Assembly (NCBI RefSeq): GCF_004570875.1
Contig: NZ_SPQK01000018.1
Coordinates: 1-64,000 of the forward strand
Source: Blastococcus sp. CT_GayMR16
GTDB taxonomy: Bacteria; Actinomycetota; Actinomycetes; Mycobacteriales; Geodermatophilaceae
Reading direction: 5' to 3'
Length of the DNA stretch: 64,000 nt
Part shown: positions 4,322-25,780 of the stretch, piece after piece
How positions within the stretch are numbered: the first letter of the stretch is position 1
Layout of the letters: every line of letters begins with the position of its first letter
The notes under the pieces: model-generated
What the model was told of the DNA's origin: nothing
Database searches by the model: none
The model's input: the letters and a program-made list of their open reading frames with translations, nothing else
Translations under genes and position numbers: made by a program

Positions 4322-4331
4322 GGAGAATCCG

Positions 4332-5021: not shown

Positions 5022-5032
5022 GGACGGGCGGG

Positions 5033-7722: not shown

Positions 7723-8673
7723 ATGACCTCCCGCCGCGTCGTGATCGCCCTCGGCGGCAACGCCATGACCGGCGCGGACGGGTCGGCCACCCCGGGAGCC
7801 CAGCGCGACGCGCTGCGCGAGGCGTCTGCCCACATCGCCGACGTCGTCGCGTCCGGCGTCGAGGTGGTGCTCACCCACGGCAACGGCCCGCAGGTCGGCA
7901 ATCTCCTGGTCAAGAACGAGCTGGCCGCGCACGTGGTGCCGCCGGTCCCGCTGGACTGGTGCGTCGCCCAGACCCAGGCCACCATCGCCTTCACGCTCAG
8001 CGACGAACTGGACTCGGCCCTCGCGGCGCGCGGCCTGCCGCAGCGCACCGCCGGCCTGGTCACGCGCACGCTCATCGACGTCGAGGACCCGGGCTTCCGC
8101 GAGCCGTCCAAGCCGGTCGGCCGCTTCCTCCCCCGCGAGGAGGCGGAACGGTTCGTCTCCCTCGGCCAGGTCTGGGAGGACCGCGGGGAGAAGGGCTGGC
8201 GCCGCGTGGTCGCCTCGCCCGAGCCGACGTCCGTCGTCGACTCCCCTGCGATCCACGCGCTCGCCGGAGCCGGCTTCGTCGTCGTCTGCGCCGGCGGCGG
8301 TGGCATCCCGGTGGCCGACGACGGGCGTGACGGATCCGCCCTGCGCGGCGTCGAGGCGGTCATCGACAAGGACCTCACCGCCGCGATCCTGGCGCGCGAG
8401 CTCGACGCCGACACCCTCGTCATCGCCACCGACGTCCCTCACGTGATGATCGACTTCGGGACGGCGAACGCCCGACCGCTGGGCCGCGTCACGGTGGCCG
8501 AGATGCATGCGCACGCCGCCGCGGGCCAGTTCGCGCGCGGCAGCATGGGCCCGAAGGTCGAGGCCGCCCTCCGCTTCGTAGCGGGTGGCGGGCGCGCCGT
8601 CATCACGTCTCTAGAACACATCGCCGACGCCGTCTCCGGTGACGACGCCGGCACCGTCATAACCGCTTCCTGA
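7723..8673 (+). CDS. arcC: Carbamate kinase
   Basis: A 316-residue amino-acid-kinase-fold enzyme. It interconverts carbamoyl phosphate plus ADP and carbamate plus ATP; catabolically it makes ATP while carbamate falls apart to CO2 and NH3. Family signatures are present: IALGGNAM at the N terminus, THGNGPQVG, the CAGGGGIPV segment, [12 protein letters not shown] and [10 protein letters not shown]. Length is typical. No arginine deiminase or ornithine carbamoyltransferase is nearby. The next gene, 11 nt downstream, is a barbiturase-family ring opener, and FdrA/DUF1116 carbamoyltransferase-like genes lie 8 kb away. This points to carbamoyl phosphate from heterocycle breakdown rather than from arginine. 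Confidence 0.95.
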
Positions 8674-8684
8674 GAGGAACCCCC

Positions 8685-9788
8685 GTGCCCGCACCGATCG
8701 AGGTCCGCAAGGTCCCGCTGCACAACGTCAGTGACGCCTCCGAGCTGGCCAAGCTCATCGACGACGGTGTCATGGAGGCCGACCGCATCATCGCCGTCAT
8801 CGGCAAGACCGAGGGCAACGGCGGGATCAACGACTACACCCGGATCATCGCCGACCGCGCCTTCCGCGAGGTCCTCGAGGAGAAGGGCTCCCGCTCGCGC
8901 GAGGAGGTCAAGCAGATCCCGATCGTCTGGTCCGGCGGCACGGACGGCGTCATCAGCCCGCACGCCACGATCTTCGCGACCCTCCCCGAGGACTCGGTCG
9001 AGCAGACCGACGAGCCGCGGCTGACCGTCGGCTACGCGATGAGCGACGTCCTGCTGCCCGAGGACATCGGGCGCATCTCCATGGTGGAGAAGGTCGCCGA
9101 GGGCGTGAAGAAGGCGATGGAGGCCGCCGGCATCACCGACCCGGCCGACGTGCACTACGTGCAGACCAAGACCCCGCTGCTGACGATCGACACGATCCGC
9201 GACGCCCGAGAACGCGGCAAGACGACGTACATGGAGGAGCCGCACGGCTCCATGGACCTCTCCAACGGCACCACGGCACTCGGCATCGGGGTCGCACTCG
9301 GCGAGATCGAGATGCCGAAGCAGGAGCAGGTCATGCACGACCTCTCCCTCTTCAGCGCCGTCGCCTCCTGCTCGTCGGGTGTGGAACTGGACCGCGCGCA
9401 GATCGTCGTCGTCGGCAATGCCCGTGGCCACGGTGGCACCTACAAGGTCGGCCACTCGGTGATGAAGGACGCCCTCGACCAGGACGGGATCTGGGAGGCC
9501 ATCCGCAACGCCGGCCTCGAGCTTCCCGACCGGCCGCACTACACCGACCTGGGCGACCGCCTGGTCAACGTGTTCCTCAAGTGCGAGGCCTCGCCGGACG
9601 GCAAGGTCCGCGGGCGCCGCAACGCGATGCTCGACGACTCCGACGTCTCCTGGCACCGCCAGATCAAGGCGACGGTCGGCGGCGTGACCGCCTCGGTCAC
9701 CGGCGACCCGGCCGTCTTCGTGTCCGTGGCTGCGGTCCACCAGGGCCCGTCCGGCGGCGGCCCGGTCGCCGCCATCGTCAAGGCGTAG
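8685..9788 (+). CDS. Ring-opening amidohydrolase, barbiturase/cyanuric acid hydrolase family
   Basis: A 367-residue member of the small barbiturase/cyanuric-acid-hydrolase family, which opens cyclic ureides. The family has three repeated domains with serine-lysine pairs. Matching motifs are [14 protein letters not shown] and [13 protein letters not shown], then YVQTKTPLL and [11 protein letters not shown], then LKCEASPDG and HQGPSGGGP. Sequence alone does not clearly separate barbiturase from cyanurate hydrolase. The context (uracil-type permease, molybdenum hydroxylase) favours barbiturase, giving ureidomalonate. The GTG start follows GAGAGGAA. It lies 11 nt after arcC in the same operon and ends at a strong hairpin (9799-9844). 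Confidence 0.9.
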
Positions 9789-9798
9789 TCAGCAACTC

Positions 9799-9844
9799 CG
9801 GGGAAGTAGGGGTTCGGACGCCGTTCCGGAGCCCTACTTCCCCG
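9799..9844. terminator. Bidirectional terminator hairpin
   Basis: CGGGGAAGTAGGG (9799-9811) and CCCTACTTCCCCG (9832-9844) form a perfect 13-bp stem with a 20-base loop, between the convergent ring-opening amidohydrolase and the SipW-type gene. There is no clear U-tract, as is common in actinobacterial terminators. Confidence 0.7.
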
Positions 9845-9854
9845 AACTCGGGGT

Positions 9855-11531
9855 TCAGGCGAAGCGGTGGCCCCAGAGGCCTCCGGGCGCCGACATCGGC
9901 CCCGGGACGACGACCGGCAGAGGCGCCGTCAGGTCGTCGGGTTCCGTCGACCTGGCCGCGACCGGTGCCGGTACGGGCGGCTTGCCTCGCTGGCGCTGCG
10001 GCAGGCCGGGGATGACGAGGCGGTACGTGGCATCGACGTCCCGCACCGCGAAGACGTCCTCGTCCGGGGCCGCGTGGTGCAGGACGAGCGTGTCGAACCG
10101 TTCGGCGACCCGGTGCAGAGCCTCGGGGTCGGAGACGTCGATGACGGTGGGCCCGGGGTCGAACGCGGCAACGGGCAGGATCCGGGCGGCATGCTTGACG
10201 AGGAACTCGTCGGCGACGTCGCCACGTCCGGTCCGGCCGATCCACGCTCCGCCGGCGAGGGTGAGCAGGGAGAGTCCGAAGACGGCGACCACCACGATCC
10301 GGGCGACGTCGAGCGGGATCGACACGCTCAGCACGCTGAGCCGGCGCGGACCGGTCTCCTCGACCACCACGGGGGTCTGCGTGCTCGGCGCCAGTGCTGC
10401 CCGCGCGTCCCCGGCGAGGCGCAAGGACGTGGCCTCGAGATTGAACGAGAGCCCGGCGGGTGAGCCTGCCTGGAAGGGCAGCCCGCGGACCGTGCCCTCG
10501 GTCACGACGACGGGCGTGACGGTGAGCGTCGCGCTCGTGCCCCCGCCGCCGATCTCCGCGAAGTGCTTGCCGAGCAGGGCAGCCGCCTCCGCCGGGTCGA
10601 CCGGCACGGTGGCGGTGGCCGACCCCTCGGCCAGGGCGACGACGGGACTGCTGTTCAGGTAGGCGCTCCAGCCGTCCGCCGAGGAGACCGCGACGTCGAG
10701 CCGCATGGCGCCACGGAGATCGGCGAGGTCCGGGCCGGTGACGGCATTGGTGAAGGACACGCTCAGGTCGGAGGCGAGGCTGGTCCACACCGTGTCGCCG
10801 GTCGAGACGGTGCCGGCCGGGTACGTCGTCCCTGCCTCGGCGGAAGCGGTATAGGTGAACGTTCCCTGCTGGGTCACCTGCAGCGTCTTCGTGTCCGTCT
10901 GGGTCGACGGCAGCGCGAGCAGGACGCCGCCCGCGACCCCCGCCAGGAGAGCGACGGCCGCGGAGATCAACGCGACCTGGCGGGCCATCGCCCGGGTCGG
11001 CATCCTGAAGGCCGGCGCTCGAGGGATCGAGGGGCGCCGGAGACGGCGGAGCGCGGAACGGGCACCGTGCCGGCCGCGGGGCCTGCGGGCGGCCCCGGCC
11101 ACGGTGAGCGCGGCGACGACGACCAGCCCGAGGACGCCGGGGTTGGTGACCGCCGCGAGCGCCTTACCCCCCTGGGGAACTCTCAGGAAGAGCTTGCCCA
11201 GGACCTCGTTCGGTGTCGGGTGATCCTCGTCGAGCCAGTCGTTGTTGTCGCCCTGGATCACGAAGCGGTCGCCGTCCAGTGCGACGATCCGGTGCATGAC
11301 GACGGTGTCGAGCGAGGCACTCTGGTAGGCGACGACGTCCCCCACCGCATAGCTGCCGGCCGACCGCAGGATCGCCATGTCCCCGGTGTGGAAGCGCGGT
11401 TCCATGCTGATGCCGTGCGTGCTGACGTACGTGGTGGAGCCACCGAGCGCGAGCGGCCACAAAAGCCACACAGCCGCCAGCACCAGCGCGCTGAGGGCGC
11501 TGATGCTGGCGGCTCTGCTGGCGGCATTCAT
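9855..11531 (-). CDS. SipW-type signal peptidase I fused to a DUF5305-like domain
   Basis: A 558-residue membrane protein. Residues ~10-150 are a SipW/archaeal-type signal peptidase: a membrane helix, then catalytic S42 in HGISMEPRFHTGD, and H80 in VVMHRIV where bacterial type I enzymes have lysine; GDNND follows. Two membrane helices and a basic linker lead to a long extracytoplasmic region (about 210-400), a further helix near 410-430 and a Pro-rich tail, which fits the DUF5305 architecture. Such peptidases cleave TasA/CalY-like substrates at the membrane. The adjacent upstream gene encodes a suitable small secreted protein. The fusion of peptidase and DUF5305 in one chain is notable. The DUF5305 call is from overall pattern. 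Confidence 0.82.
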   Translation of the reverse strand: MNAASRAASISALSALVLAAVWLLWPLALGGSTTYVSTHGISMEPRFHTGDMAILRSAGSYAVGDVVAYQSASLDTVVMHRIVALDGDRFVIQGDNNDWLDEDHPTPNEVLGKLFLRVPQGGKALAAVTNPGVLGLVVVAALTVAGAARRPRGRHGARSALRRLRRPSIPRAPAFRMPTRAMARQVALISAAVALLAGVAGGVLLALPSTQTDTKTLQVTQQGTFTYTASAEAGTTYPAGTVSTGDTVWTSLASDLSVSFTNAVTGPDLADLRGAMRLDVAVSSADGWSAYLNSSPVVALAEGSATATVPVDPAEAAALLGKHFAEIGGGGTSATLTVTPVVVTEGTVRGLPFQAGSPAGLSFNLEATSLRLAGDARAALAPSTQTPVVVEETGPRRLSVLSVSIPLDVARIVVVAVFGLSLLTLAGGAWIGRTGRGDVADEFLVKHAARILPVAAFDPGPTVIDVSDPEALHRVAERFDTLVLHHAAPDEDVFAVRDVDATYRLVIPGLPQRQRGKPPVPAPVAARSTEPDDLTAPLPVVVPGPMSAPGGLWGHRFA

Positions 11532-11599
11532 GTCGAAGGCACCGGTCCGGGGTCAGGCGGGGCGACCGTTCGGCCGACCCCGCCTGCACCGCGGAGGGG

Positions 11600-12010
11600 T
11601 TACTGGACCACCGTGATGGCCACGCTGTCGAACTCGTCGAAGGTGCGCGGGCTGCCGGTCGTGTCGCAGGTCATGACGATGATCGGGGGAACGGCGAGGG
11701 CGTCCCACGCGGTCTTGACGGCGCACGTGTACGGGGTGCCGACGACGACCGTGCCGCCCGTGGTCTTGAGCGTCATGGTGGTGGTCTTGCCCGTGAGGTT
11801 CGTGGTCGAGGTGAACTCGACGGCGTCGACGACGGTCGCGTCGGCGGCGTTCTGCACGTAGTGGATGTCGGTCACGACGGCACCGGTGACGGAACCCTGA
11901 CCGGAACCTGCGACGGAGTTCGGGACGGTGTTGCTGGCGGTGAAAGCGGACGTGCCGACGGCGGCAGCGGCAACCGCGACACCAGCGAGCAGAAGACGCG
12001 ACTTGCGCAT
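11600..12010 (-). CDS. Small secreted TasA/camelysin-like protein, probable SipW substrate
   Basis: A 136-residue protein with an N-terminal signal peptide (MRKSRLLLAGVAVAAAAVGT) followed by SAFTASNTVPN, the type of junction seen in SipW-dependent secreted proteins. The rest is Thr/Val-rich and predicted beta-rich, with two cysteines (near residues 96 and 113) that could form a disulfide. No catalytic motif is seen. It lies 68 nt upstream of the SipW-type peptidase in the same direction, so the pair probably forms an operon in which the peptidase processes this protein for surface display or assembly. Its function is unknown; the substrate role is inferred from neighbourhood. Confidence 0.75.
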   Translation of the reverse strand: MRKSRLLLAGVAVAAAAVGTSAFTASNTVPNSVAGSGQGSVTGAVVTDIHYVQNAADATVVDAVEFTSTTNLTGKTTTMTLKTTGGTVVVGTPYTCAVKTAWDALAVPPIIVMTCDTTGSPRTFDEFDSVAITVVQ

Positions 12011-12351
12011 TGCACGGGTCCTGTTCTCTCAGTGGCTCAGTGCCGCCCAGATGTGTTCATCCGGTTCAGCGACGGCTTCGCCATTCGTTGACGCCCTGTC
12101 TTCGGCCACTCGCCGCCCCGTATCAACTCCTGTCCCAAAAGAAACTGGAGTCGCTAAAGCGACACCCTCGGGGCGGTCATCGACGAGTGAATTCCACGGT
12201 GGAAAAGCGCAGGTCCACGTGTTGTCGGGGCCGCCGCAACGGTGTCCGCCGGGTCCGCATCCCCGTCGGGGTCCGGAAAGACTTCCGTTCGGCTCAACTA
12301 CCGTGAGCCGGTACTTCGCGGTCGGAGGCCCACGCCACGAGGAGTTCGGCA
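12011..12351. promoter_or_regulatory. Divergent intergenic region, two short palindromes
   Basis: These 341 bases separate the secreted protein (minus) and a phosphatase (plus) and hold no convincing gene. It is less GC-rich than its surroundings. Two short inverted repeats are visible: GTCGCT-aa-AGCGAC at 12150-12163 and TTCCACGGTGGAA at 12192-12204. They may be regulatory sites. No paired promoter hexamers could be assigned with confidence. Confidence 0.45.
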
Positions 12352-13461
12352 GTGCACAGGTCAACCCGTGTACGGCACGCGTTGCCGCTCACGGTGCTCG
12401 CCCTCTTCACGGTGCTCGACCTCGCGGCCGGCCGCGGTCAGCAGGCACTCTCGCTGACCGTCATCTCTCCCTTGGTCGCAGCGACCACCCTCGGCCGACG
12501 GGCGACAGCTGCGTACGGCGTCCTCGCCGTGCTGGTCTCGGCGCTGCTCGGCATCTACGACCAGCAGTACACGTCCGAGGCGGCGCCCACGCAGTTCATG
12601 CGGCTGTTCGGCGTCGCCGTGGGCAGCGGCGTCGCGCTGTTCGCCTGCACGCTGCGACTCCGGGGTGAGGCGCGGCTGAGGCAGGCGAGCGCCCAGGCGG
12701 CGGCGAGCGGGGCCGTCGTCGAGCTGGCCGAGACCCTGCAGCGCAACCTGCTGGGTGACCCGCCCCGGGTCGACGGGCTGGAGACCGCGGTGCGGTACCT
12801 GCCTGCCACGCGCCATGCCCGCGTCGGCGGTGACTGGTACGACGCCTTCCCGGTTCCGGACGGGACGACGATGCTGGTCATCGGCGACGTCGCCGGCCAT
12901 GACGCCCCGGCCGCAGCGACGATGTCCGAGACGCGCGGCATGCTGCGGGCGATCGCGCAGTCCACGGTCGGCTCACCGGCGGCGGTGCTCGCCGTGCTGG
13001 ACACCGCTTTGGCGAACCTGCGGATGCGCACCCTCGTGACGGCGCTCGTCGCGGCGGTGGACGTCCGGCGCACCCGGGACAGCGCCGGGGTGACGCTGTG
13101 CTGGTCGAACGCCGGTCATCCCGCGCCGGTCCTGGTCTGCGCGGACGGCTCCACGCAGCTGCTCGAGCGCCCGGCCGACCGGCTGCTCGGGGTCTCGCCC
13201 GACGCCGCGCGCCACGACCACACCCTGGTCCTGCAGCCGGGCGACACGGTGCTCTTCTACACCGACGGGCTGGTGGAGCAGCCGGATGTCGCGCTCGACG
13301 ACGGCACGGCCTGGCTCGTCGGGCGGCTCCGGCGGCTGGGCACCGAATCCCTCGATCGGCTGTGCGACGACCTGCTGGCCGGCATGAGTGGGCCGATCGA
13401 CGACGACGTCGCCCTGCTGGCCGTGCGCGTCCCGCCGAGGGCTCAGGCGCCGCAGCGGTAG
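12352..13461 (+). CDS. Membrane PP2C-type (SpoIIE/RsbU-like) phosphatase
   Basis: A 369-residue protein with about three membrane segments in the first ~105 residues, a short coil, and a SpoIIE-type serine/threonine phosphatase domain (about 125-360). Metal-binding and fold motifs are VGGDWYDAF, IGDVAGHDA, SNAGHPAP, FYTDGLVE and DDDVALLAV. Such phosphatases usually act on anti-anti-sigma factors in partner-switching control of sigma factors; none of those partners is nearby. The GTG start has GAGGAG about 8 nt upstream. The 3' end overlaps that of the convergent phosphatase gene by 19 nt. Confidence 0.9.
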   Translation: MHRSTRVRHALPLTVLALFTVLDLAAGRGQQALSLTVISPLVAATTLGRRATAAYGVLAVLVSALLGIYDQQYTSEAAPTQFMRLFGVAVGSGVALFACTLRLRGEARLRQASAQAAASGAVVELAETLQRNLLGDPPRVDGLETAVRYLPATRHARVGGDWYDAFPVPDGTTMLVIGDVAGHDAPAAATMSETRGMLRAIAQSTVGSPAAVLAVLDTALANLRMRTLVTALVAAVDVRRTRDSAGVTLCWSNAGHPAPVLVCADGSTQLLERPADRLLGVSPDAARHDHTLVLQPGDTVLFYTDGLVEQPDVALDDGTAWLVGRLRRLGTESLDRLCDDLLAGMSGPIDDDVALLAVRVPPRAQAPQR

Positions 13462-15167: not shown

Positions 15168-15221
15168 CTCCGCACCCCCGCCCAGCGTCCACGGCCGTCC
15201 CCGCTCACTGCGCCGGCCGGC

Positions 15222-15261
15222 ACGGTGTCGGGATCATCGTGCCATCCCGGTACGACACCGT
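15222..15261. terminator. Long hairpin between rpsD and the PAS-GAF phosphatase
   Basis: ACGGTGTCG (15222-15230) pairs with CGACACCGT (15253-15261), and inside it GGGAT (15230-15234) matches ATCCC (15244-15248). It lies 69 bases after the rpsD stop and before the phosphatase start on the same strand. A terminator for rpsD or an operator for the phosphatase are both possible. Confidence 0.45.
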
Positions 15262-15329
15262 CCCGCTGGACACCACCTTGTGTGACGGAACGGTCATCCT
15301 TCGCAGTCGAGCCGGGGGAGGCGACGGCG

Positions 15330-15932: not shown

Positions 15933-15943
15933 AGGACCTCCAG

Positions 15944-15962: not shown

Positions 15963-15992
15963 CTACTCGCCCATGAGCTTCCGAGGTGGTCC

Positions 15993-16745: not shown

Positions 16746-16749
16746 CCGT

Positions 16750-18171
16750 TCAGGCGGTGCGCGACTCCTCGGCCAGCGCGGCGAGCGCCTTCTCGAAGCA
16801 CTCCTGCGGCGGCTGCACGAGGCCGGCGCCGACCTGGCCGGTGCCGGCGATCCGCCCGGCCATGCCGGTGTTGATCTGCGGCAGCCAGCCGGTGCGCGCC
16901 ACCTTCAGGACGTCGATCCCCGTCGGTGAGCCGCGGAAGCCCATGATCGGGATGGCCATCGCCGGGTTCTCCGCGAGCGTCAGCTGGTACATCCGCTCCG
17001 TGGTCGCGAGCGCGTCGGGCACGGTGCCGCCCACGAACCGCACGATCGCGGGCGCCGCGGCCATCGAGAAACCACCGACGCCGTAGGTCTCCATGATCGC
17101 GGAGTCGCCGATGTCGGGGTTGGCGTCGTCCGGGCCGTAGTCGCCGAGGAAGAGCCCGACCGGGGTGTTCGCGGGCCCGGTGAACCAGCGGTCGCCGGTG
17201 CCGGCGGTCTGGATCCCGAACTCCGTGCCGTTGCGCGACATGACGGTCACCATCGACGAGCCGGGGACGTCCCGGGCGGCGTCCATCGCGAGCTTCGCCG
17301 TCGGCATACCGAGGTTGAGGTAGAAGTGCTCGTTGCCGCCGATGAACTTCAGGACCGCGGCGATGTCGGACGACGGCGCATCGACGGCGACGATCGACGG
17401 CGACAGCTCGCGCAACGCCATCAGCGAGCCGGCGCGGTTGCGGTTGTGCCCCTCATCGCCCATCTGCAGCATCTGCGCGAGGATCGCCTTGACGTCGATC
17501 GGGTCGTCGGACCGGCTCCGCACCGCCGACTGCAGGACCGGGCCGAGGACGTCGCGCATCCAGGCCAGCCGGGTGAGGACCTCCTCGTTGAAGGCGCCCA
17601 TCCGCAGCACCTTGCCGAGGCCCTCGTTGAGGTTGCAGAACGCCATGTTCTTGTCGCTGCCGCCGTGGACCGGGTCCTTCAGGCACCACATCCACATCGA
17701 CGGCGACGTCACACCGGCCATCGGGCCCACCGTGCGGTGGTGGTGGCACGGGTCGAGCGTGATCTCGCCGTTCGCCAGGATCCGCTCGGCGTCCTCGACG
17801 TCGGTGGCCCAGCCCTCGAACAGGCAGGCACCGATCAGCGCACCCCGCATCGGACCCGACGCGGTCTCCCACGTCAGCGGCGGTCCGGAGTGCAGCAGCA
17901 TCCGGTCCCGCAGGCCGATGACCTCAGCCGCCGGGCGGACGTCGACCAGCTGCGAGCCCGCGGCGAGGATCCGCTCGACCGCGGCCCGGTTGGCCGACGC
18001 GCGGCGCGGGTCGAGGGCGACGTCGGCGATGTCCTCGGCGCTGCCGAAGCCCGGCGGACGCCAGTCGACGTCGTGCACCTCGGCGCCCTGGGCGCGCAGC
18101 GCGTCGGAGAAGACGTCGACGCCCGCGGCGACGACGGCCGGCGGCCCGGAGAGCAGTCCACCGAGCGTCAT
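16750..18171 (-). CDS. DUF1116 protein (YlbE/AllG-like, carbamoyltransferase-associated)
   Basis: A 473-residue DUF1116 protein, homologous to E. coli YlbE. In E. coli the fdrA-ylbE-ylbF genes have been assigned to oxamate carbamoyltransferase, which converts oxalurate plus phosphate to oxamate plus carbamoyl phosphate. Conserved-looking stretches here are MLLHSGPPLTWE, DPCHHHRTVGPMAGV, MWCLKDPVHGG, LQMGDEGHNRN and VMSRNGTEFGIQ. Its ATG overlaps the fdrA stop by 4 nt (ATGA), so the two are coupled and probably form a complex. A DUF2877 (YlbF-like) third subunit is not in the window. The substrate here is unproven; ureidomalonate is proposed from context. Confidence 0.85.
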   Translation of the reverse strand: MTLGGLLSGPPAVVAAGVDVFSDALRAQGAEVHDVDWRPPGFGSAEDIADVALDPRRASANRAAVERILAAGSQLVDVRPAAEVIGLRDRMLLHSGPPLTWETASGPMRGALIGACLFEGWATDVEDAERILANGEITLDPCHHHRTVGPMAGVTSPSMWMWCLKDPVHGGSDKNMAFCNLNEGLGKVLRMGAFNEEVLTRLAWMRDVLGPVLQSAVRSRSDDPIDVKAILAQMLQMGDEGHNRNRAGSLMALRELSPSIVAVDAPSSDIAAVLKFIGGNEHFYLNLGMPTAKLAMDAARDVPGSSMVTVMSRNGTEFGIQTAGTGDRWFTGPANTPVGLFLGDYGPDDANPDIGDSAIMETYGVGGFSMAAAPAIVRFVGGTVPDALATTERMYQLTLAENPAMAIPIMGFRGSPTGIDVLKVARTGWLPQINTGMAGRIAGTGQVGAGLVQPPQECFEKALAALAEESRTA

Positions 18172-19691
18172 GAGGAGGCTCCCAGCAGGTCGAGGGCGTA
18201 CCGCGTGGCCGCGGAGTTGGAGGCGAAGACGGCAGCGCCGGCGGCAGAGAGTGCATCGGCCTGGCGCGACCAGCCCTGCGGATCACCCTCGGTGCCGATC
18301 AGCGCGATCACCACCGGCAGCGGGAACTCGGCCGCCTCGCGGGCCGCCGTCAGCGCCGGTTCCAGGGCCGCGGCGGGATCGGGGTCGGCGCCGTACCCGA
18401 GGACGACGTCGAGCAGCAGCACCGCGGGCTCCTCGCCGGCGGCGACTGCCGCGATCGCCTCGAGCCGCAGCGTCGGGTCGATCATCGGGTGCGCCCGGCC
18501 CACCGTCAGGGCGTCGTCCCCGAAGTCGATGACGACGTGCCCCGAGGCGAACAGGTCCGTCCCGAGGTCGAGCTCGGGCTTCAGCGGGGTGTTCGAACGG
18601 ATGTCGCCGAGGGCGGGAGCGGCGAGCAGCATCGTCTCGTCGGCGAGCGTGCCCCCGGAGTAGAGGCCCTTGAGCACGGCGCCGGGCAGCGCGGCCTCGG
18701 CCGGCCCGGGCCGCGACGGCCAGGTCGGCACGTCGAGCCCCATGTCGGTGAGCAGCGCCTCGACCGCGGCGGTGAGGTCCGGCGTCTCCGGCGACAGGAC
18801 GGCGGAACGCACGGGGACGGACAGCTTGTCGCCGGCTGCCGAGACGGCCGCGGCCACCGACGGCGCCGGCGGCTTGGACACCAGCAGCACCCGCTCCGTC
18901 GCGGTGTCGGCGTCCAGCGCCGCGAGCGCGTCGAGGGTGGCGAGACCGCCGACCGCCTCGGAGAGGTCACGGCCGCCGACGCCCAGCACGTGCGAGACGC
19001 CGACACCGGCCATGTCGAGCAGGGACGAGATCTGCTGCGCTCCCGTGCCGGAGGCGGCGACCAGCCCGACCGGGCCCGGCCGGACGACGTTCGCGAAGCC
19101 GAGTGCGACGCCGGAGACGATCGCCGTCCCGCAGTCGGGACCCATGACCAGGACGCCGGCCGCCCGGGCCGCCAGCTTGAGGGCGACCTCGTGCTCGACC
19201 GGGACGCCGTCGGAGAAGACGAGGACCGACCGGCCGGCGGCGATCGCGTCGGCGGCCTCGGCCACGGCGTAGCTGCCGGGCACGGAGACGATCGCCAGCG
19301 CGGCGGTGTCGGGCGGGAGGTCGTCGAGGCCGGCGCCGATCGTGCGCAGCGGGACGGCAGCGGCGGTGCCGGTCGAGCGCTCCCGGGCCGCGAGCGCGGC
19401 GTCGACGGCGGCCTCGGCGGCGGCCAGCACCTCGGCGTCGTCGGCACGGATGGCGATGAGCAGCTGCTCGGGCGAAGCGTCCCCGTCGGGGGCCAGGCCC
19501 ATGGTGGTGGCGAGCTCGAGGTTGAGCGGCGTGGCCATCGCGACCAGGACCGCGGTGACGCCGTCCCGGGCGCCGATGTCCCGGCTCACCTGCATGAGCT
19601 TCACCGAGTCGGCGTACACCCCCGATCGGAGCACGACCGAGCGTGTACCGGCTGATGCGGAGGGGGCTCCCGAGGGGGGCGAGGCACTCAC
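18168..19691 (-). CDS. fdrA: FdrA-family protein (acyl-CoA synthetase-like; AllF-like)
   Basis: A 507-residue FdrA-like protein related to succinyl-CoA synthetase alpha chains. An N-terminal part (about 20-110) holds the FdrA-specific segment (SGVYADSVKLMQVSRD). A Rossmann-like region contains VLVMGPDCGTAIV, PGPVGLVAASGTGAQQ and VLGVGGRDLSEAVGG. E. coli FdrA (AllF) is part of oxamate carbamoyltransferase. Here it leads a two-gene operon with DUF1116 and is divergent from the permease-hydroxylase operon. The GTG start at 19691 was taken from a short N-terminal lead; the conserved part begins near residue 17. The shared motif lies 28-39 nt upstream of the start. Confidence 0.85.
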   Translation of the reverse strand: MSASPPSGAPSASAGTRSVVLRSGVYADSVKLMQVSRDIGARDGVTAVLVAMATPLNLELATTMGLAPDGDASPEQLLIAIRADDAEVLAAAEAAVDAALAARERSTGTAAAVPLRTIGAGLDDLPPDTAALAIVSVPGSYAVAEAADAIAAGRSVLVFSDGVPVEHEVALKLAARAAGVLVMGPDCGTAIVSGVALGFANVVRPGPVGLVAASGTGAQQISSLLDMAGVGVSHVLGVGGRDLSEAVGGLATLDALAALDADTATERVLLVSKPPAPSVAAAVSAAGDKLSVPVRSAVLSPETPDLTAAVEALLTDMGLDVPTWPSRPGPAEAALPGAVLKGLYSGGTLADETMLLAAPALGDIRSNTPLKPELDLGTDLFASGHVVIDFGDDALTVGRAHPMIDPTLRLEAIAAVAAGEEPAVLLLDVVLGYGADPDPAAALEPALTAAREAAEFPLPVVIALIGTEGDPQGWSRQADALSAAGAAVFASNSAATRYALDLLGASS

Positions 19692-19718
19692 CCCACGGAC
19701 CGTACCGAGGGATGTCTC

Positions 19719-19730
19719 AGCGGTGAAGTA
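19719..19730 (-). promoter_or_regulatory. Shared upstream motif, copy B (before fdrA)
   Basis: On the minus strand this is TACTTCACCGCT, identical to 12 bases before arcC (7684-7695), followed by GAGA instead of AAGG. It lies 28-39 nt upstream of the fdrA start in the divergent promoter region. It is a candidate operator or promoter element. Confidence 0.5.
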
Positions 19731-19741
19731 TTCGCCCGAAA

Positions 19742-19761
19742 GTGCAATAACGATTTAGCAC
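19742..19761. promoter_or_regulatory. Imperfect 20-bp palindrome in the fdrA/permease divergent region
   Basis: GTGC (19742-19745) and GCAC (19758-19761) frame an AT-rich centre; the 20 bases match their own reverse complement at 14 positions. The spot, midway between two divergent operons of the same proposed pathway, suits a regulator controlling both. No regulator gene is adjacent. Confidence 0.4.
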
Positions 19762-19874
19762 TGAGGTACTTCCGCCGGACACACCTGCGTGACACATTGG
19801 CGCCTCCCCGGTGGGTCGACGCCCGTCGAGCAGCACCGGTTCGGGTCGGAAGTGCACGTCAAGGAGGCACTCGG

Positions 19875-21347
19875 ATGGCGTTCAGCTGGAAGCTCTACGG
19901 GGACGGCAAGACCCCGCCGTTGGGCGAGGCGGTGGCCCCCGACGAGCGCTTGTCGTGGCCCCGCACCGTCGGCATCGGTGCGCAGCACGTCGTCGCCATG
20001 TTCGGCGCGACCTTCGTCTTCCCGCTCATCATGGGGTTGGACCCCAACCTCGCGATCATGATGAGCGGCATCGCGACGATCATCTTCCTGCTCATCGTGC
20101 AGGGGAAGGTCCCCAGCTACCTCGGCACCTCGGCGTCGTTCGTCGGCGGTGTGTTCGCGATCCGCGCCCAGGGCGGCGACTCCGCCGACGTCGTCGGGTC
20201 GATCCTGATCGCCGGTGTGGTACTGGCCCTCGTCGGCCTGCTCATCCACTTCGCCGGCGTCGGTCTGGTGAACAAGGTGCTGCCCCCGGCGGTCACCGGC
20301 GCGGTCGTCATGCTGATCGGGTTCAACCTGGCCCCGGTCGCGGCGAACACGTACTGGCCCCAGGACCAGTGGGTGGCCCTGGCCACGATGACCTTCGTCA
20401 TCGTCTCCTCGCTGGCACTGCGGGGCTTCCTCGCCCGCATCGCGATCCTGCTGGGGCTGGTGTTCGGCTACCTGCTGTCGATCCTGCTCGACGCCACGTC
20501 CGGCCCGATCACCTCCGTGCTCGGCGGTGCGACCGAAGCAACCGAGCACGACCGGATCAGCTTCGACTCGGTGTCCGGCGCCGACTGGTTCGGCCTGCCG
20601 GACTTCACCGCGCCGCACTTCTCGTTCAACTTCGCCGTCCTGGTGCTGCCGGCCGTCATCGCCCTCGTGGCGGAGAACGCCGGCCACGTCAAGGCTGTCG
20701 GTGAGATGACCAAGCGCGACCTCGACCCGGTCATCGGCCGCGCCGTGTTCGCCGACGGCGTCGGCACCGTGATCGCGACCTCGGTCGGTGGCTCGCCGAC
20801 GACCACCTACGCGGAGAACATCGGTGTCATGGCCGCCACCCGGGTCTACTCGACCGCGGCGTACTACGTGGCCGCGCTCGTCGCGATCCTGCTGGGCCTG
20901 GTGCCCAAGTTCGGCGCCCTGGTCAACATCGTCCCCGGCGGCGTGCTCGGCGGGATCACCGTCGTCCTCTACGGGATGATCGGCCTGCTCGGCGCCAAGA
21001 TCTGGAAGGAGAACCGGGTCGACTTCGCCAACCCGATCAACCTCGTGCCGCTCGCGGCCGGGATCATCATCGGGATCGGCCCCGTCAACCTGCAGATCAC
21101 CGACAACTTCTCCCTGCAGGGCATCGCGCTCGGCTCGATCGTCGCGGTCGCCGGCTGGCACCTCGCCCGGGCTCTTGCCCCGGCGGACATGAAGGCGGCG
21201 CTGCTCCGCGAGGGCGCCGTCCTGGAGAGCGGGTCCACGCTCGGCCACAAGGGCGCCCAGCTCGGTGGGGCCGACCCGTCGTCGGTCGACGAGATCGGCC
21301 GCCCGGGTGTTCCCGGCAACCGGGGAGAGGGCACGCTCAACCGGTGA
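19875..21347 (+). CDS. NCS2 nucleobase permease, uracil (UraA/PyrP) type
   Basis: A 490-residue permease with the ~14 membrane segments of the nucleobase/ascorbate (NCS2) family, importing nucleobases with protons. The signature SPTTTYAENIGVMAATRVYS and the glutamate in ALVAENAGHVKAV follow the uracil-permease branch rather than the xanthine/urate branch, which has a QNNG-type motif. The ATG at 19875 follows a strong AAGGAGG at 19861; the reading frame further upstream lies in the promoter region. It overlaps the next gene by 4 nt and heads a five-gene operon with a molybdenum hydroxylase. Uracil or another pyrimidine is the likely substrate; thymine or xanthine are not excluded. Confidence 0.9.
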   Translation: MAFSWKLYGDGKTPPLGEAVAPDERLSWPRTVGIGAQHVVAMFGATFVFPLIMGLDPNLAIMMSGIATIIFLLIVQGKVPSYLGTSASFVGGVFAIRAQGGDSADVVGSILIAGVVLALVGLLIHFAGVGLVNKVLPPAVTGAVVMLIGFNLAPVAANTYWPQDQWVALATMTFVIVSSLALRGFLARIAILLGLVFGYLLSILLDATSGPITSVLGGATEATEHDRISFDSVSGADWFGLPDFTAPHFSFNFAVLVLPAVIALVAENAGHVKAVGEMTKRDLDPVIGRAVFADGVGTVIATSVGGSPTTTYAENIGVMAATRVYSTAAYYVAALVAILLGLVPKFGALVNIVPGGVLGGITVVLYGMIGLLGAKIWKENRVDFANPINLVPLAAGIIIGIGPVNLQITDNFSLQGIALGSIVAVAGWHLARALAPADMKAALLREGAVLESGSTLGHKGAQLGGADPSSVDEIGRPGVPGNRGEGTLNR

Positions 21348-22219
21348 AACCAGCTCCGTTCCGTTACGCCGACCCCGGCACCCTGGATGAGGTCCTGACA
21401 GTTCTCTCATCAGAGGGTGAGGGCGCCAAGGTGCTCGCCGGCGGCCAGTCGCTGCTCCCGCTGCTCTCCATGCGGCTCGCAGCACCGGCCACGCTGGTGG
21501 ACATCAACCGGGTGCCCGGCCTCGACACCGTCGAGGCCACCGGGGACGGCGTGACGGTCGGAGCGCTCGTACGGCACAACGCACTGCTGCATGACGACGC
21601 TGCCGCCCGGGTCCAGCCGCTGCTGGCCCGGGCGACGGCGAACGTCGCCCACCCGGCCATCCGGAACCGGGGCACGACGGTCGGCTCCATCGCGCACGCC
21701 GACCCCTCGGGCGAGATGACCTCGGTCCTCGCCCTCACCGACGGCTCCGTCACCGTGGCCACGCCCAGTGGCGTCGAGACCATCGGCTGGCGCGACCTGT
21801 TCGTCGGCCCGCTGGAGACCTCGATCCACGGTCCCGCGGTCGTCACCTCCGCCTACTTCCCCGCACTCCCCGCGCGCTCGGGCACCGCCTTCGCCGAGGC
21901 CGCGCGCCGCAAGGGCGACTACGCGGTCTGCGGCGGGGGTGTCGTCGTCACGCTGGACGCCGACGGTCGCGTCGCCGCCGTCCGCGCTGCGTACATCTCG
22001 GTGGGCCTCACCCCCGAGGTGCACGACCTCACCGACGCCGTGGTCGGCCAGCCGGCCGACAGCGCGGACTGGGCCGCCGCCGGCGAGCTCGCGCGGACAC
22101 TGGTCGATCCGGACACCGATCTGCACGCCAGCGCGGACTACCGGCGCCTGCTGGTCGGCGTGCTGACCGAACGCACGCTGGCCGAGGCTGCTGCCGAGGC
22201 TCTTGGGGGCATGGCATGA
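21344..22219 (+). CDS. Molybdenum hydroxylase FAD-binding subunit (CoxM/XdhB type)
   Basis: A 291-residue medium subunit of an xanthine-dehydrogenase-family enzyme, carrying FAD and passing electrons outward. FAD motifs are AGGQSLLPLLSMRLA near residue 30 and RNRGTTVGSIAHADPSGEM near residue 108. The C-terminal CO dehydrogenase flavoprotein domain is present. The GTG start overlaps the permease stop, and its stop overlaps the next start, so it is made with its partners. In the proposed scheme the enzyme would hydroxylate uracil to barbiturate. Confidence 0.92.
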   Translation: MKPAPFRYADPGTLDEVLTVLSSEGEGAKVLAGGQSLLPLLSMRLAAPATLVDINRVPGLDTVEATGDGVTVGALVRHNALLHDDAAARVQPLLARATANVAHPAIRNRGTTVGSIAHADPSGEMTSVLALTDGSVTVATPSGVETIGWRDLFVGPLETSIHGPAVVTSAYFPALPARSGTAFAEAARRKGDYAVCGGGVVVTLDADGRVAAVRAAYISVGLTPEVHDLTDAVVGQPADSADWAAAGELARTLVDPDTDLHASADYRRLLVGVLTERTLAEAAAEALGGMA

Positions 22220-22719
22220 GCACCGACACCGAACGCACGATCACCCTCACGGTGAACGGTGTTCCACGTGAAGCCACGGTGCCGGTGCGCCGCCTGCTGT
22301 CGGACGCGCTGCGCCACGACCTGGGCCTGACCGGCACGCACGTCGGCTGCGAGCACGGCGTCTGCGGGGCGTGCACCGTGCTGGTGGACGGCGATCCGGT
22401 GCGCTCGTGCCTGATGCTCGCCGTCCAGGTGCACGGGCACGAGGTGACGACCGTCGAGGGCCTGGCGCACTCCGACCACCAGGGCGGGCAGGTGCTGCAC
22501 CCGGTGCAGGAGGCCTTCCGTGAGTGCCACGCGCTGCAGTGCGGCTTCTGCACGCCGGGCTTCCTCATGACGATCGCCGCCGGGCTCGAGGCGCGCGACA
22601 ACTCGGCGGAGCTCACCGAGGAGGAGGTCGACGACATGGTCGGCGGCAACCTCTGCCGGTGCACGGGCTACGCCAACATCAAGAAGGCGGTGCACCACGC
22701 CGCCGAGGCGATGAAGTGA
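22216..22719 (+). CDS. Molybdenum hydroxylase [2Fe-2S] subunit (CoxS type)
   Basis: A 167-residue small subunit with two [2Fe-2S] clusters. The plant-ferredoxin-type cluster is bound by the cysteines of GCEHGVCGACTVLVDG and the downstream RSC; the alpha-helical cluster uses CGFCTPGF and CRCTGYANI. It relays electrons between the molybdenum site and FAD. It overlaps both neighbours by 4 nt (ATGA and GTGA). Confidence 0.95.
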   Translation: MSTDTERTITLTVNGVPREATVPVRRLLSDALRHDLGLTGTHVGCEHGVCGACTVLVDGDPVRSCLMLAVQVHGHEVTTVEGLAHSDHQGGQVLHPVQEAFRECHALQCGFCTPGFLMTIAAGLEARDNSAELTEEEVDDMVGGNLCRCTGYANIKKAVHHAAEAMK

Positions 22720-25139
22720 CCACGAAGCTGTTCGGCGAGCCGGTCCGCCGGCGCGAGGACGCCCGGCTGATCATCGGCAAGGGCCGCTACCTCGACGACA
22801 TCGGGCACAACGCCCTGGCCGCCGCCTTCGTGCGCAGCCCGCACGCGCACGCGCGGATCACCGCCATCGACACCGACGGCGCCCTGGACGTCGAAGGCCT
22901 CGTGGCGATCTACACCTACGAGGACCTGCACGGCCCGATGGCCGAGCCGCTGCCCGTGCTCATCCCCCACCCGCAGCTGCACCACCCGCGCACCGGCTAT
23001 CCGCTGGCCAACGGGATCGTGAACCACGTCGGCGAGCCGATCGTCATGGTGGTCGCGACCGACCGGTACATCGCCGAGGACGCCGCCGAGCGGATCCTGG
23101 TCAGCTACGAGGAGCTGCCGGTCGTCGTCGGGGTGGATGCTGCGCGCGAGGCCGCCAACTGGGTGCACGAGGACGTGCCGACGAACGTTGCGGCGCACCA
23201 CCACCAGGAGACCGGCGACGTCGAGGCGGCGCTCGCCGGATCGACCCGCACCATGTCCTTCACGCAGTACATCGAGCGCAGCGCCTGCACGCCGATGGAG
23301 GGCAAGGGCGTGCACGCACGCTGGGACGCCGACGACTCCAGCCTGCGGGTCTACACGAGCACCCAGGCGTCGACGTCGGTGCGCGCGGCGATCGCGGCGA
23401 AGCTCGAGCTGTCGCTGGACAAGGTCGAGGTCATCGCGCCGGACGTCGGCGGCGGCTTCGGCGTGAAGATCGTGCACCCGTGGCCCGAGGAGCTGCTGAT
23501 CCCGCTGGCGGCGATCGCGCTCGGCGCCGAGGTGAAGTGGACCGAGGACCGCCGCGAGCACTTCATCTCCTCGGCGCACGAGCGTCAGCAGCGGCAGGAG
23601 ATCACCGTCGGGTACGACGACGACGGCCGGATCAGCGCGCTCGACGTCCACATCTGGCACGACAACGGCGCGTACACGCCCTACGGGATCATCGTGCCGA
23701 TCGTGACGGCGACCCAGCTGGTCGGGCCGTACGTGATCCCGACGTACCGGGTGCGGGTCGAGAGCGTCTACACGAACACCGTGATCGTGACGCCGTACCG
23801 CGGGGCCGGGCGGCCGCAGGGCTGCTACGCCATGGAACGGACGATGGACCGCATCGCCGACGAGCTCGACCTCGACCGGGCCGTCGTCCGGGAGCGGAAC
23901 CTGATCCAGGCCGACCAGTTCCCCTACGACCACCACCTGACGTTCCAGGACGGCCGGCCGGTCATCTACGACTCGGGTGACTACGTCGGACTGATGGACA
24001 AGCTCAAGGTGCTGGTCGGCTGGCCGGAGGCGTCGCGTCTGCGCGACGAGGCCGCTGCGCGCGGGAAGCTGCTCGGCGTCGGCATGGCGATGTACGTGGA
24101 GGGCACCGGGCCCGGGCCGTACGAGGGCGGGCACGTGCAGGTGCTCGGCAGCGGCAAGGTGCTCGTCTCGACCGGGCTGACGTCGCAGGGGCAGGGCCAC
24201 GAGACGGCGTTCGCGCAGATCGTGGCGTCCGAGCTCGGGGTGCCGATCGAGGACATCGAGGTGACCACCGGCGACACCCGGCGCTTCGGCTACGCCGTGG
24301 GCACGTTCGCCTCACGGGCGGCGGTGATGAGCGGCAACGCCATCGCTCTGGCGGCGCGGGGCGTGAAGGAGAAGGCGCTGCGGATCGCGGCCGACGTCCT
24401 CGAGGTCGACCCGGGTGACCTGGAGATCGACGAGGGACTGGTGCAGGTCAAGGGGACGCCGGGGGCCTCGATCCCACTGCGGACGGTGGCGGTGCTCTCG
24501 AACCCGCTGCGGTACGCGTTCGACGAGGCCGCGAAGCAGGCGACCCAGTTCGCCGGGCCGGCCGACGACTCGAAGCCGCCGGTCGCAGTCGGTGACGCAC
24601 CGGGGCTGGAGCACGTGGACTACTACTCGCCGATCCGGTCGACGTTCGCGTCGGGCGCGCACGCGGCGATCGTGGAGATCGACCCGGCGACGTGGGAGAT
24701 CGAGATCGTGAAGTATGCGGTCGTGCACGACTGCGGCAACGTCGTGAACCCGATGATCGTCGAGGGCCAGGTGCACGGCGGCGTCGCGCAGGGCGTGGGC
24801 GGCGCGCTGTACGAGCGGATGGCCTACGACAGCGACGGGCAGCTGCAGAACGCCTCGTTCATGGACTTCCTGATGCCGTACGCGAGCGAGATCCCCGACG
24901 TGGTGATCGACCACCAGGAGACGCCGTCCCCGCTGAACCCGCTGGGGATCAAGGGCGCCGGCGAGGCAGGCGTCATCCCCGGGACGGCGGCGATCGCCTC
25001 GGCGATCGAGGACGCGGTGGGACGGCGGATCTCCTCCATGCCGATCTCCCCCACCGAGCTGTACGACCTGATGCGCAACGACGACTCGGAACTGACCGCG
25101 GCGCATGCCCGGCGTTCCGGAACAGGAGCGATGGCGTGA
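22716..25139 (+). CDS. Molybdenum hydroxylase catalytic subunit (CoxL-like, not a form I CO dehydrogenase)
   Basis: An 807-residue large subunit binding the molybdopterin cofactor. It starts at GTG 22716, overlapping the small-subunit stop. The active-site loop reads PYRGAGRPQG (from P360), not the AYRCSFR loop of form I CO dehydrogenase. The catalytic glutamate is E750 in KGAGEAGVIPG. Molybdopterin-contacting segments include GGGFGVKI and TSQGQGHETAF. Annotation as carbon monoxide dehydrogenase would therefore be wrong. The substrate is unknown; with a uracil-type permease in front and a barbiturase-family gene in the same region, uracil or thymine oxidation is the leading hypothesis. Confidence 0.92.
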   Translation: MTTKLFGEPVRRREDARLIIGKGRYLDDIGHNALAAAFVRSPHAHARITAIDTDGALDVEGLVAIYTYEDLHGPMAEPLPVLIPHPQLHHPRTGYPLANGIVNHVGEPIVMVVATDRYIAEDAAERILVSYEELPVVVGVDAAREAANWVHEDVPTNVAAHHHQETGDVEAALAGSTRTMSFTQYIERSACTPMEGKGVHARWDADDSSLRVYTSTQASTSVRAAIAAKLELSLDKVEVIAPDVGGGFGVKIVHPWPEELLIPLAAIALGAEVKWTEDRREHFISSAHERQQRQEITVGYDDDGRISALDVHIWHDNGAYTPYGIIVPIVTATQLVGPYVIPTYRVRVESVYTNTVIVTPYRGAGRPQGCYAMERTMDRIADELDLDRAVVRERNLIQADQFPYDHHLTFQDGRPVIYDSGDYVGLMDKLKVLVGWPEASRLRDEAAARGKLLGVGMAMYVEGTGPGPYEGGHVQVLGSGKVLVSTGLTSQGQGHETAFAQIVASELGVPIEDIEVTTGDTRRFGYAVGTFASRAAVMSGNAIALAARGVKEKALRIAADVLEVDPGDLEIDEGLVQVKGTPGASIPLRTVAVLSNPLRYAFDEAAKQATQFAGPADDSKPPVAVGDAPGLEHVDYYSPIRSTFASGAHAAIVEIDPATWEIEIVKYAVVHDCGNVVNPMIVEGQVHGGVAQGVGGALYERMAYDSDGQLQNASFMDFLMPYASEIPDVVIDHQETPSPLNPLGIKGAGEAGVIPGTAAIASAIEDAVGRRISSMPISPTELYDLMRNDDSELTAAHARRSGTGAMA

Positions 25140-25780
25140 ACCTCGACGGATCCGCGGTGCTGCACGCCGACCCCGAGCGGGTGTGGTCGGTCATCACCGA
25201 CCCCGCGGTGCTCGCGCGCACGATCCCCGGCGTGGAGACGCTGGAACAGGTCGGGGACGACGAGTACAAGATGAACGTGACGGTGGGCGTCGGGGCGATC
25301 CGCGGGACGTACGCCGGTGACGTGCGCCTGTCGGACCAGCAGCGGCCCACGTCGTATGTGATGCACGCGTCGGGTGCCGGCGGTCCGGGCAACGTCCGGG
25401 CGAAGGTGACGATCAACCTGGAGCCGCACGCCGACGGGACAGCCCTGACGTACTCCGCCGATGCGGTGGTCGGCGGGGCGGTCGCGGGCGTCGGTCAGCG
25501 GATGATCTCCGGCGTCGCCAAGCGGATGGCAGGCCAGTTCTTCAAGGCGATCGACGACGAGCTGACCGGGAAGGTGACACCCATCGCGGCGGCTCCCTCC
25601 GCGGTGGCCGCTGCCCCGGCGGCCGGCGCCCCGGCGGCGGGTCCGCAGGTCTTCACGGGCAAGGCGCCCGCTGCGGCCGCGGGCCCGGCCGACGTGAAGA
25701 CCCTCGCGCTGGCCGCGGCCGGCGGCGCGCTGCTCACCCTGATCGGCGTCCTGGTCGGCTACCGCCTCGGTCGCCGCTGA
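25136..25780 (+). CDS. coxG: CoxG-like SRPBCC membrane-anchor protein
   Basis: A 214-residue protein. Residues 1-~145 are a CoxG/SRPBCC fold (LDGSAVLHADPERVWSVITD, IPGVETLEQVGDDEYK, GVAKRMAGQFF). An Ala/Pro-rich linker (~150-190) leads to a C-terminal membrane helix (LALAAAGGALLTLIGVLVGY). CoxG proteins anchor molybdenum hydroxylases to the membrane or help deliver electrons to quinones. The GTG start overlaps the catalytic-subunit stop by 4 nt, making it the last gene of the operon. Confidence 0.9.
   Translation: MNLDGSAVLHADPERVWSVITDPAVLARTIPGVETLEQVGDDEYKMNVTVGVGAIRGTYAGDVRLSDQQRPTSYVMHASGAGGPGNVRAKVTINLEPHADGTALTYSADAVVGGAVAGVGQRMISGVAKRMAGQFFKAIDDELTGKVTPIAAAPSAVAAAPAAGAPAAGPQVFTGKAPAAAAGPADVKTLALAAAGGALLTLIGVLVGYRLGRR

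Follow-up and report, generated by a model that had tools for sequence, protein, structure and literature searches.

The question raised by a 64,000-nucleotide stretch of Blastococcus sp. CT_GayMR16 (contig NZ_SPQK01000018.1, positions 1 to 64,000; 73% guanine plus cytosine), hereafter the window, is what unites a carbamate kinase gene (arcC), a ring opener of the barbiturase/cyanurate hydrolase family, homologues of two oxamic transcarbamylase subunits, AllF (FdrA) and AllG (DUF1116), a nucleobase permease and a molybdenum hydroxylase. We consider it probable that these genes, together with one for the third transcarbamylase subunit, AllH, encode a phosphorolytic variant of oxidative pyrimidine catabolism that yields adenosine triphosphate (ATP), in which AllFGH would replace the hydrolytic ureidomalonase. 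A sequence-only reading of the window had proposed that the ring opener, FdrA/DUF1116 and ArcC serve a single pathway, and this idea gains support from the residue signature of the ring opener, co-occurrence across genomes, operon-like gene blocks and a contrast with rhodococci. All the genes it had named were recovered in place by Pfam, NCBIfam/TIGR and PRK profile searches:

7723..8673, + strand: ArcC, carbamate kinase (PF00696; PRK12352; TIGR00746)
8685..9788, + strand: barbiturase-type ring opener (PF09663, 489 bits; TIGR02714, 584 bits)
16750..18171, - strand: AllG (DUF1116; PF06545, 307.6 bits; match to PDB 3clq)
18168..19691, - strand: AllF (FdrA; PRK06091, 388.8 bits, below the cut-off of 433; match to PDB 3dmy)
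19875..21347, + strand: NCS2/UraA-RutG-type nucleobase permease (NCS2 superfamily model, 297 bits, cut-off 291.8)
21344..22219, + strand: molybdenum hydroxylase, flavin adenine dinucleotide (FAD) subunit (profile match)
22216..22719, + strand: molybdenum hydroxylase, [2Fe-2S] subunit (profile match)
22716..25139, + strand: molybdenum hydroxylase, large subunit (NF040766; start at about 22716 by our own estimate, the open reading frame (ORF) opening at 22524)
25136..25780, + strand: CoxG-like protein (profile match from 25136; ORF opening at 24692)

Oxidative pyrimidine breakdown is described, in the available part of PMC3758960, as ending in malonate and urea. The route that we propose would begin with import of uracil, perhaps also thymine, by the NCS2 permease, followed by oxidation of uracil to barbiturate by the three-subunit molybdenum hydroxylase, assisted by CoxG, and by opening of the barbiturate ring by barbiturase to give ureidomalonate, an acylurea. 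AllF-AllG-AllH would convert ureidomalonate and phosphate to malonamate and carbamoyl phosphate, from which ArcC would form ATP, CO2 and NH3 with adenosine diphosphate (ADP), and an amidase would probably hydrolyse malonamate to malonate; the hydrolytic ureidomalonase, which gives malonate and urea and no ATP, would be replaced by AllFGH. All catalytic steps are predictions from the genes, the substrate of AllFGH above all.

Is the ring opener a barbiturase or a cyanurate hydrolase? In the available part of Peat et al. 2013, Group VI barbiturases carry the signature Asn-His-Lys-Val-Ser/Ala (Asn195, His321, Lys325, Val345 and Ser/Ala346 in AtzD numbering) and cyanurate hydrolases Arg-Thr-Arg-Gly-Gly (PMC3758960). 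The window protein has N194, H324, K328, V348 and A349, the complete Group VI signature, and scores 641 bits against PDB 5hwe ('Barbiturase') and 338 bits against the best cyanuric acid amidohydrolase. The two activities are not separable by profiles alone, because the equivalog NF052395 (cyanuric acid amidohydrolase) also exceeds its cut-off (472 vs 360). Residues K162, S230 and E234 are invariant across 10 aligned sequences and were equated, by spacing only, with Lys156, Ser226 and Glu230, a Ser-Lys dyad and Glu, in the accessible text of PMC4051656. The protein is 81% identical to that of Rhodococcus erythropolis NBRC 15567 and 79-81% to rhodococcal homologues. The 147 ring-opener loci compared, many of which share a genome with another, comprise 138 with NHKV and a fifth residue of A (69), S (51) or G (18), one with IHKVA and eight with RTRGG; the NHKV-G form falls outside the published Group VI logo. 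We therefore predict, from its residues, that the window enzyme is a Group VI barbiturase of the AtzD/Bar family that converts barbiturate to ureidomalonate. The cyanurate or biuret that the sequence-only reading had kept as alternative substrates is disfavoured at this locus by the Group VI signature, although it appears to be real elsewhere, on plasmids (see below).

The enzyme might instead act on another cyclic imide, such as parabanate, hydrolysis of which gives oxalurate, or a methylated barbiturate, with AllFGH acting on that product. The chemistry would work for oxalurate from parabanate, and a 1965 paper, by its title, links parabanic acid to the induction of oxamate transcarbamylase; the full Bar signature, the high identity to rhodococcal homologues and the pyrimidine-type permease nevertheless make this explanation quite unlikely. 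For the permease, the RutG model is best at 375 bits (below its cut-off of 758.65), ahead of the uracil permease model at 293 and that for xanthine permease at 176. Its start at 19875, as first read, holds: it is an ATG with AGGAGG upstream, in a longer ORF from TTG 19797.

If the ring opener is a barbiturase, could a transcarbamylase process its product? The available text of PMC11326118 describes the E. coli oxamic transcarbamylase as encoded by allF (fdrA), allG (ylbE) and allH (ylbF), with allK as the carbamate kinase gene, and oxalurate, an acylurea, as the substrate that it handles. In the window, allF and allG share four overlapping bases, and their products are 40% and 49% identical to E. 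coli FdrA and YlbE/AllG, respectively. The third subunit is encoded outside the window, at G000:C10:83113 on another contig of the same genome, where the sole AllH match (30% identity to the E. coli homologue over 125 residues) adjoins a PucR-type regulator gene. All three subunits are thus present in the genome, and the earlier assignment of FdrA/DUF1116 as a carbamoyltransferase stands as to the two subunits but needs amending as to the enzyme, which should be the three-subunit AllFGH and not FdrA/DUF1116 alone. A carbamate kinase is also linked, since arcC lies about 8 kilobases (kb) from allG; ArcC is 39% identical to E. coli YbcF/AllK, exceeds the cut-off of the curated PRK12352 carbamate kinase profile (300 vs 266 bits), as a catabolic carbamate kinase should, and stays below that of TIGR00746 (333.6 vs 358.25 bits).

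The co-occurrence search that the sequence-only reading had suggested was run on a phylum sample of 296 genomes, with AllG in 42 and PF09663 in 22 (G and L numbers are our labels for genomes and loci). Every genome with a barbiturase-like ring opener carries AllG (20/20), the signature of these ring openers being NHKV followed by A in 8, S in 3 and G in 9; the nine Gly forms are, on their residues, barbiturase-like and not exact Group VI. PF09663 was rejected as a uniform label, two genomes without AllG (G088 and G220) having cyanurate-type proteins with RTRGG that are 37% and 43% identical to the window protein. The association between barbiturase-like ring opener and AllG is far beyond chance, with a Fisher p of 9e-20 over the 296 genomes and, by genus, 15/15 against a background of 31/193 (p = 3.6e-14), p-values that overstate independence because the sampled genomes are related. 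AllG and the ring opener lie within 20 kb on one contig in 14 of the 20 genomes, on the same strand in 13 of these 14, the window genome being the one with opposite strands; in the remaining six they are 28 and 44 kb apart (two genomes) or on different contigs (four). In the window genome and 40 relatives, 41 in all, AllG occurs in 28, AllH in 29 and a PF09663 ring opener in 29, and AllH accompanies AllG in 27 of the 28, with G031 as the exception.

Are these genes also arranged as one unit? The 13 same-strand loci, which come from distant families, were mapped with our own profiles; the gene labels of earlier locus maps, set by our own hidden Markov models (HMMs), are approximate, having missed AllF or AllH in several loci where this later profile map found them. 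AllH, AllF and AllG are consecutive on the strand of the ring opener in all 13 blocks (AllF in two pieces in L100), and arcC is immediately upstream of AllH in 11, the exceptions being L100 and L104. An NCS2 permease is on the same strand in 10 of the 13 (L081, L082, L083, L089, L090, L095, L096, L099, L103 and L105), replaced by an NMT1-type ATP-binding cassette importer in L088 and L100 (Pfam was run on the NMT1 protein of L102), and molybdenum hydroxylase subunits are on it in 10. PucR is divergent from the ring opener in nine blocks, and an amidase-family gene closes the far end of the row in L082, L090 and L095 (confirmed as PF01425 in L082). All pathway parts fall within about 35 kb in Embleya sp. 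NBC_00888; in Nocardioides and its relatives, the neighbour of arcC and the ring opener is HyuA, HyuB, an amidase or a class III coenzyme A-transferase. That 13 genomes of distant families carry these genes in co-directional blocks speaks against the associations being a shared regulon of independent nitrogen-scavenging enzymes with no common pathway, an explanation that draws on the three separate places of the genes in the window genome and on nearby PucR and two-component regulators. We also counted on its side that the conserved block of the allF/permease control region (19754-19774) occurs only once in the window when up to three mismatches are allowed; we give this explanation scarcely any weight.

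Named genomes offer a contrast. Named loci were the best 80 of 536 confirmed places, a choice that favours close relatives; AllG was searched in the 48 genomes of loci L171 and L175-L221, and 25 of the other 32 have AllG in the locus. It is present in 40 of the 48, of which 39 also have arcC beside the ring opener; four genomes have neither, four arcC only and one AllG only (Fisher p 0.0017). Only arcC matches above 300 bits were counted, since the arcC HMM also hits a second upstream ORF in Geodermatophilaceae at 119-246 bits. In 43 of the 48 loci arcC directly precedes the ring opener, a position that, like that before AllH in the blocks, is hard to reconcile with AllFGH being anabolic or acting on malonamate-like amides while ArcC serves another source of carbamoyl phosphate, e.g. 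arginine deiminase. That explanation can point to an arcA-like gene elsewhere in the genome and to E. coli kinetics reported with carbamoyl phosphate and oxamate as substrates (available part of PMC11326118), and we regard it as very unlikely.

Three rhodococci (L177, L182 and L187) lack AllG and AllH, the two subunits covered by the genome-wide search, and an arcC adjacent to the ring opener; they have an amidase-profile match directly after the barbiturase gene. In L182 (R. erythropolis) this amidase (11233-12726) is a PF01425 protein directly downstream of barbiturase, and the three are 78-97% identical mutually and about 41% identical to the amidase of Nocardioides operons. Strain JCM 3132 of R. 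erythropolis is reportedly the source of a barbiturase and a hydrolytic ureidomalonase; the genome searched here is that of NBRC 15567. The hydrolytic route is thus reported for a species in which AllG and AllH are missing. We know of no gene for ureidomalonase, and the rhodococcal amidase is a candidate for it. An isochorismatase-family hydrolase was considered as a general ureidomalonase and rejected, as it stands beside AllF-AllG where there is no barbiturase (L027, L111 and L112) or where the ring opener is of the cyanurate type (L107). Such hydrolases accompany AllF-AllG and arcC, with no AtzD-family ring opener in the locus, in L027, L111, L112 and L257 (a Peptoclostridium plasmid), perhaps reflecting a further substrate for the transcarbamylase family.

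Is the AllG of these genomes distinct from the oxalurate enzyme? A tree was built from 39 of the 42 phylum-sample AllG genomes (G166, G176 and G296, of family f35 and with weak scores, were left out) and 30 of the 40 named AllG genomes, those with a locus, taking one best AllG per locus. AllG proteins of barbiturase genomes fall on one branch in 61 of 62 rows (support 99/95), the 62nd (L104) joining weakly (46/0 for the whole); none of the 19 phylum-sample AllG genomes without barbiturase falls inside. The AllG of E. coli, the plasmid-borne AllG with a cyanurate-type ring opener next to it and a ComA-associated set lie outside. A second AllG of G009 (L128, on a very long branch) joins beside the group. 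These results bear on the possibility that AllFGH is an oxamic transcarbamylase of the usual kind, acting on oxalurate that comes from purines or allantoin, and brought near barbiturase by the clustering of nucleobase-catabolism genes. Homology to the E. coli enzyme and the PucR-type regulator beside AllH, of a family named for purine catabolism, are in keeping with it. It is unlikely nonetheless: AllG accompanies every barbiturase-like ring opener of the phylum sample and forms its own group, and AllD, the E. coli oxalurate-forming enzyme and the only allantoin gene searched, has no TIGR03175 match in the window genome and, over the 41 genomes, matches in 16 with none above cut-off. Recurrent neighbours of AllH (G000, G020 and G040), first taken for purine genes, proved by Pfam to be riboflavin synthesis and hisG/hisE-type histidine genes and a subtilisin inhibitor, and the purine-catabolism reading of them was dropped.

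A separate AllG clade of seven rows (L114, L115, L117, L119, L125, L126 and L127; support 100/100) has as neighbours Lyase_1 proteins, a disulfide-reductase-like flavoprotein, a GT4 glycosyltransferase and DUF7714, varying by locus, with ComA (phosphosulfolactate synthase) in four of the seven; several loci end at contig ends. These loci look like a biosynthetic cluster, its product perhaps a coenzyme M- or thiol-like cofactor.

Which enzyme would supply barbiturate? The permease, molybdenum hydroxylase and CoxG genes overlap successively by about four bases and are divergent from allFG. Among NCBIfam models, the large subunit fits NF040766 best (CODH_aero_grp5, 'aerobic carbon-monoxide dehydrogenase large subunit'), at 1450.8 bits against a cut-off of 950. 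The active-site Cys loop of CoxL is AYxCSFR. The corresponding loop here is PYRGAGR, with no Cys, and we rejected carbon monoxide dehydrogenase on this comparison. Position and family make the hydroxylase a candidate uracil/thymine dehydrogenase, and the NF040766 name for a protein without the active-site Cys loop points to a possible systematic misnaming.

Further features of the window concern its regulation and a second candidate ring-opening system:

4346..7063, + strand: sensor histidine kinase ORF (Pfam HisKA_3 and HATPase in the C-terminal part, about 6428-7012)
7060..7671, + strand: LuxR-type response regulator (receiver and GerE by Pfam)
19692..19874, no strand: divergent control region between allF and permease, with a conserved block TTTAGCACTGAGGTACTTCCG at 19754-19774
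53865-55949, + strand: HyuA, of an ATP-dependent hydantoinase/oxoprolinase-type pair
about 55946-57820, + strand: HyuB, of the same pair

The arcC and ring-opener genes, spaced by 11 bases, lie downstream of the kinase and the LuxR-type regulator, which is the likely regulator of the adjoining pair. The true kinase start is probably further in, and a conserved ORF (4296-5021) overlaps the 5' part of the kinase ORF. About 7 kb of unrelated genes, by profile matches signal-peptidase-like, two SpoIIE phosphatases and an S4-family ribosomal protein, separate this block from allFG; at 9855-11531 is an unusually long protein of 558 residues that matches the archaeal-type signal peptidase I model TIGR02228 (55.2 bits, cut-off 51.85). 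The control region was compared over 34 loci of the family of the window, which give 31 distinct sequences and in some cases share a genome. The conserved block, near which a partly inverted CTCAGCGGTGA element is found, is likely to be a regulator site. The palindrome AGTGC-N12-GCACT, considered as a shared operator, was dropped, being present in 2/34 allF-permease regions and 0/10 PucR-AllH regions.

HyuA shares 73% identity with its counterpart next to arcC-barbiturase in Nocardioides donggukensis (L198), and the pair may be a second ring opener or an enzyme for another ring. In L108-L110, from genomes without a PF09663 match, the order is molybdenum hydroxylase large subunit-HyuA-HyuB-AllF-AllG, L109 having in addition AllH, an amidase and an AMP (adenosine monophosphate)-binding ligase; in these genomes an ATP-dependent ring opener may stand in for barbiturase.

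Several observations weigh against the phosphorolytic pathway. In the window genome, AllH sits on a separate contig, arcC and the ring opener are about 7 kb away from AllFG, the best candidate for the malonamate amidase is an unlinked 59% homologue, so that this assignment is a guess, and a further contig holds an arginine-deiminase-like gene (446.9 bits, below cut-off), a possible alternative source of carbamoyl phosphate. HyuA/HyuB, present in the window and recurring beside arcC and the ring opener in other genera, have no assigned step in the pathway, and an Amidohydro_3-family gene stands between ring opener and permease on the same strand in L090, L103 and L105 (in two pieces in L105); its product may be a deaminase that supplies the pathway. 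Nine of the 20 ring openers of the phylum sample have Gly in place of Ser/Ala as the last signature residue, and blocks L100 and L104 are without arcC. Among the 41 genomes, G003 (84% complete) and G023 (95% complete) have the ring opener without AllG, and G031 has AllG without the ring opener. In the 48 named genomes, four metagenome-assembled genomes have arcC beside the ring opener without AllG (two of them with AllH), L191 has AllG without arcC beside the ring opener, AllH is missing from 5 of the 40 AllG genomes, and Modestobacter muralis (L171) has the ring opener, permease, molybdenum hydroxylase and AllH without AllG and adjacent arcC. Gene context fails to tell ureidomalonate from another acylurea. 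In M. muralis (L263 and L171) AllH and PucR are retained and barbiturase is in a different cluster, a pattern that looks like loss and regain.

Does the same set of genes occur with other ring openers? Plasmid pSR8 of Aminobacter sp. SR38 and a Klebsiella quasipneumoniae plasmid carry the row fdrA-DUF1116-ring opener-arcC, followed further along by DUF2877 and, in Klebsiella, preceded by an allophanate hydrolase; a Citrobacter freundii plasmid has ring opener-NCS2 permease-DUF2877-fdrA-DUF1116-arcC. These rows (L252, L253 and L255) and a fourth region that ends at the record end (L254) were picked from record lists of 193 and 132, and the ring openers of all four have RTRGG, the cyanurate signature. 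A membrane-protein-like family that has no Pfam match is common to the Aminobacter and Citrobacter rows (36% identity), and an Amidohydro_3 gene also lies 3' of arcC on the Aminobacter plasmid. Replacing the CH2 of ureidomalonate by NH gives 1-carboxybiuret, and because of this isostery the same enzyme chemistry would give allophanate and carbamoyl phosphate. We lean slightly towards AllFGH and carbamate kinase forming a portable module of general use, which phosphorolyses acylureas and so captures ATP from ring-opened N-heterocycles. It would pair with barbiturase in Actinomycetota and, on Pseudomonadota plasmids, with cyanuric acid hydrolase, and the E. coli oxalurate enzyme would be a specialised member.

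If the phosphorolytic pathway is correct, it would add an ATP-yielding branch to oxidative pyrimidine breakdown, the usual one in the 296-genome sample with the hydrolytic route as the exception, and would give the recently discovered three-subunit transcarbamylase a second substrate beyond the single characterised one. To our knowledge, gene assignments are missing for uracil/thymine dehydrogenase, ureidomalonase and malonamate amidase, for all of which it would provide candidates, and it suggests that molybdenum hydroxylases named aerobic carbon monoxide dehydrogenase 'grp5' may include pyrimidine hydroxylases. On plasmids, conversion of carboxybiuret to allophanate and carbamoyl phosphate would let cyanurate from herbicides and pool chemicals yield ATP, and some cyanurate degraders would be predicted to conserve energy. 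A full-text search, covering few subscription journals, returned no paper joining barbiturase with FdrA or with carbamoyl phosphate, and the novelty of an ATP-yielding barbiturate route is provisional.

How does the proposed pathway compare with known systems? The E. coli AllFGH-AllK system has the same three subunit families and a carbamate kinase, and its reaction, acylurea and phosphate to amide and carbamoyl phosphate, is the step predicted here (PMC11326118, as far as available). It differs in that the neighbours of E. coli fdrA are allantoin genes, whereas here they are barbiturase, a pyrimidine-type permease and a molybdenum hydroxylase, and in that its substrate is oxalurate and not the predicted ureidomalonate, with AllG placed in a separate tree group. 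The AtzD/TrzD cyanuric acid hydrolase pathways share the ring-opener family and, in the plasmid cases, also FdrA, DUF1116, DUF2877 and arcC, but the plasmid ring openers have RTRGG and the described routes continue by hydrolases acting on biuret, carboxybiuret and allophanate. The allFGHK genes of comammox bacteria and archaea similarly adjoin genes for an acylurea-type substrate, those for biuret; in the accessible text of PMC12625717 the authors read them as oxalurate degradation and found no atzD, and the word stem 'barbitur' is absent from its main text. The hydrolytic ureidomalonase pathway (Soong et al. 2001/2002, as cited in the available parts of PMC3758960 and PMC4051656) is alike in leading from pyrimidine through barbiturate to the ureido acid and yields urea, whereas here the acylurea would be split by phosphate to give carbamoyl phosphate and ATP.

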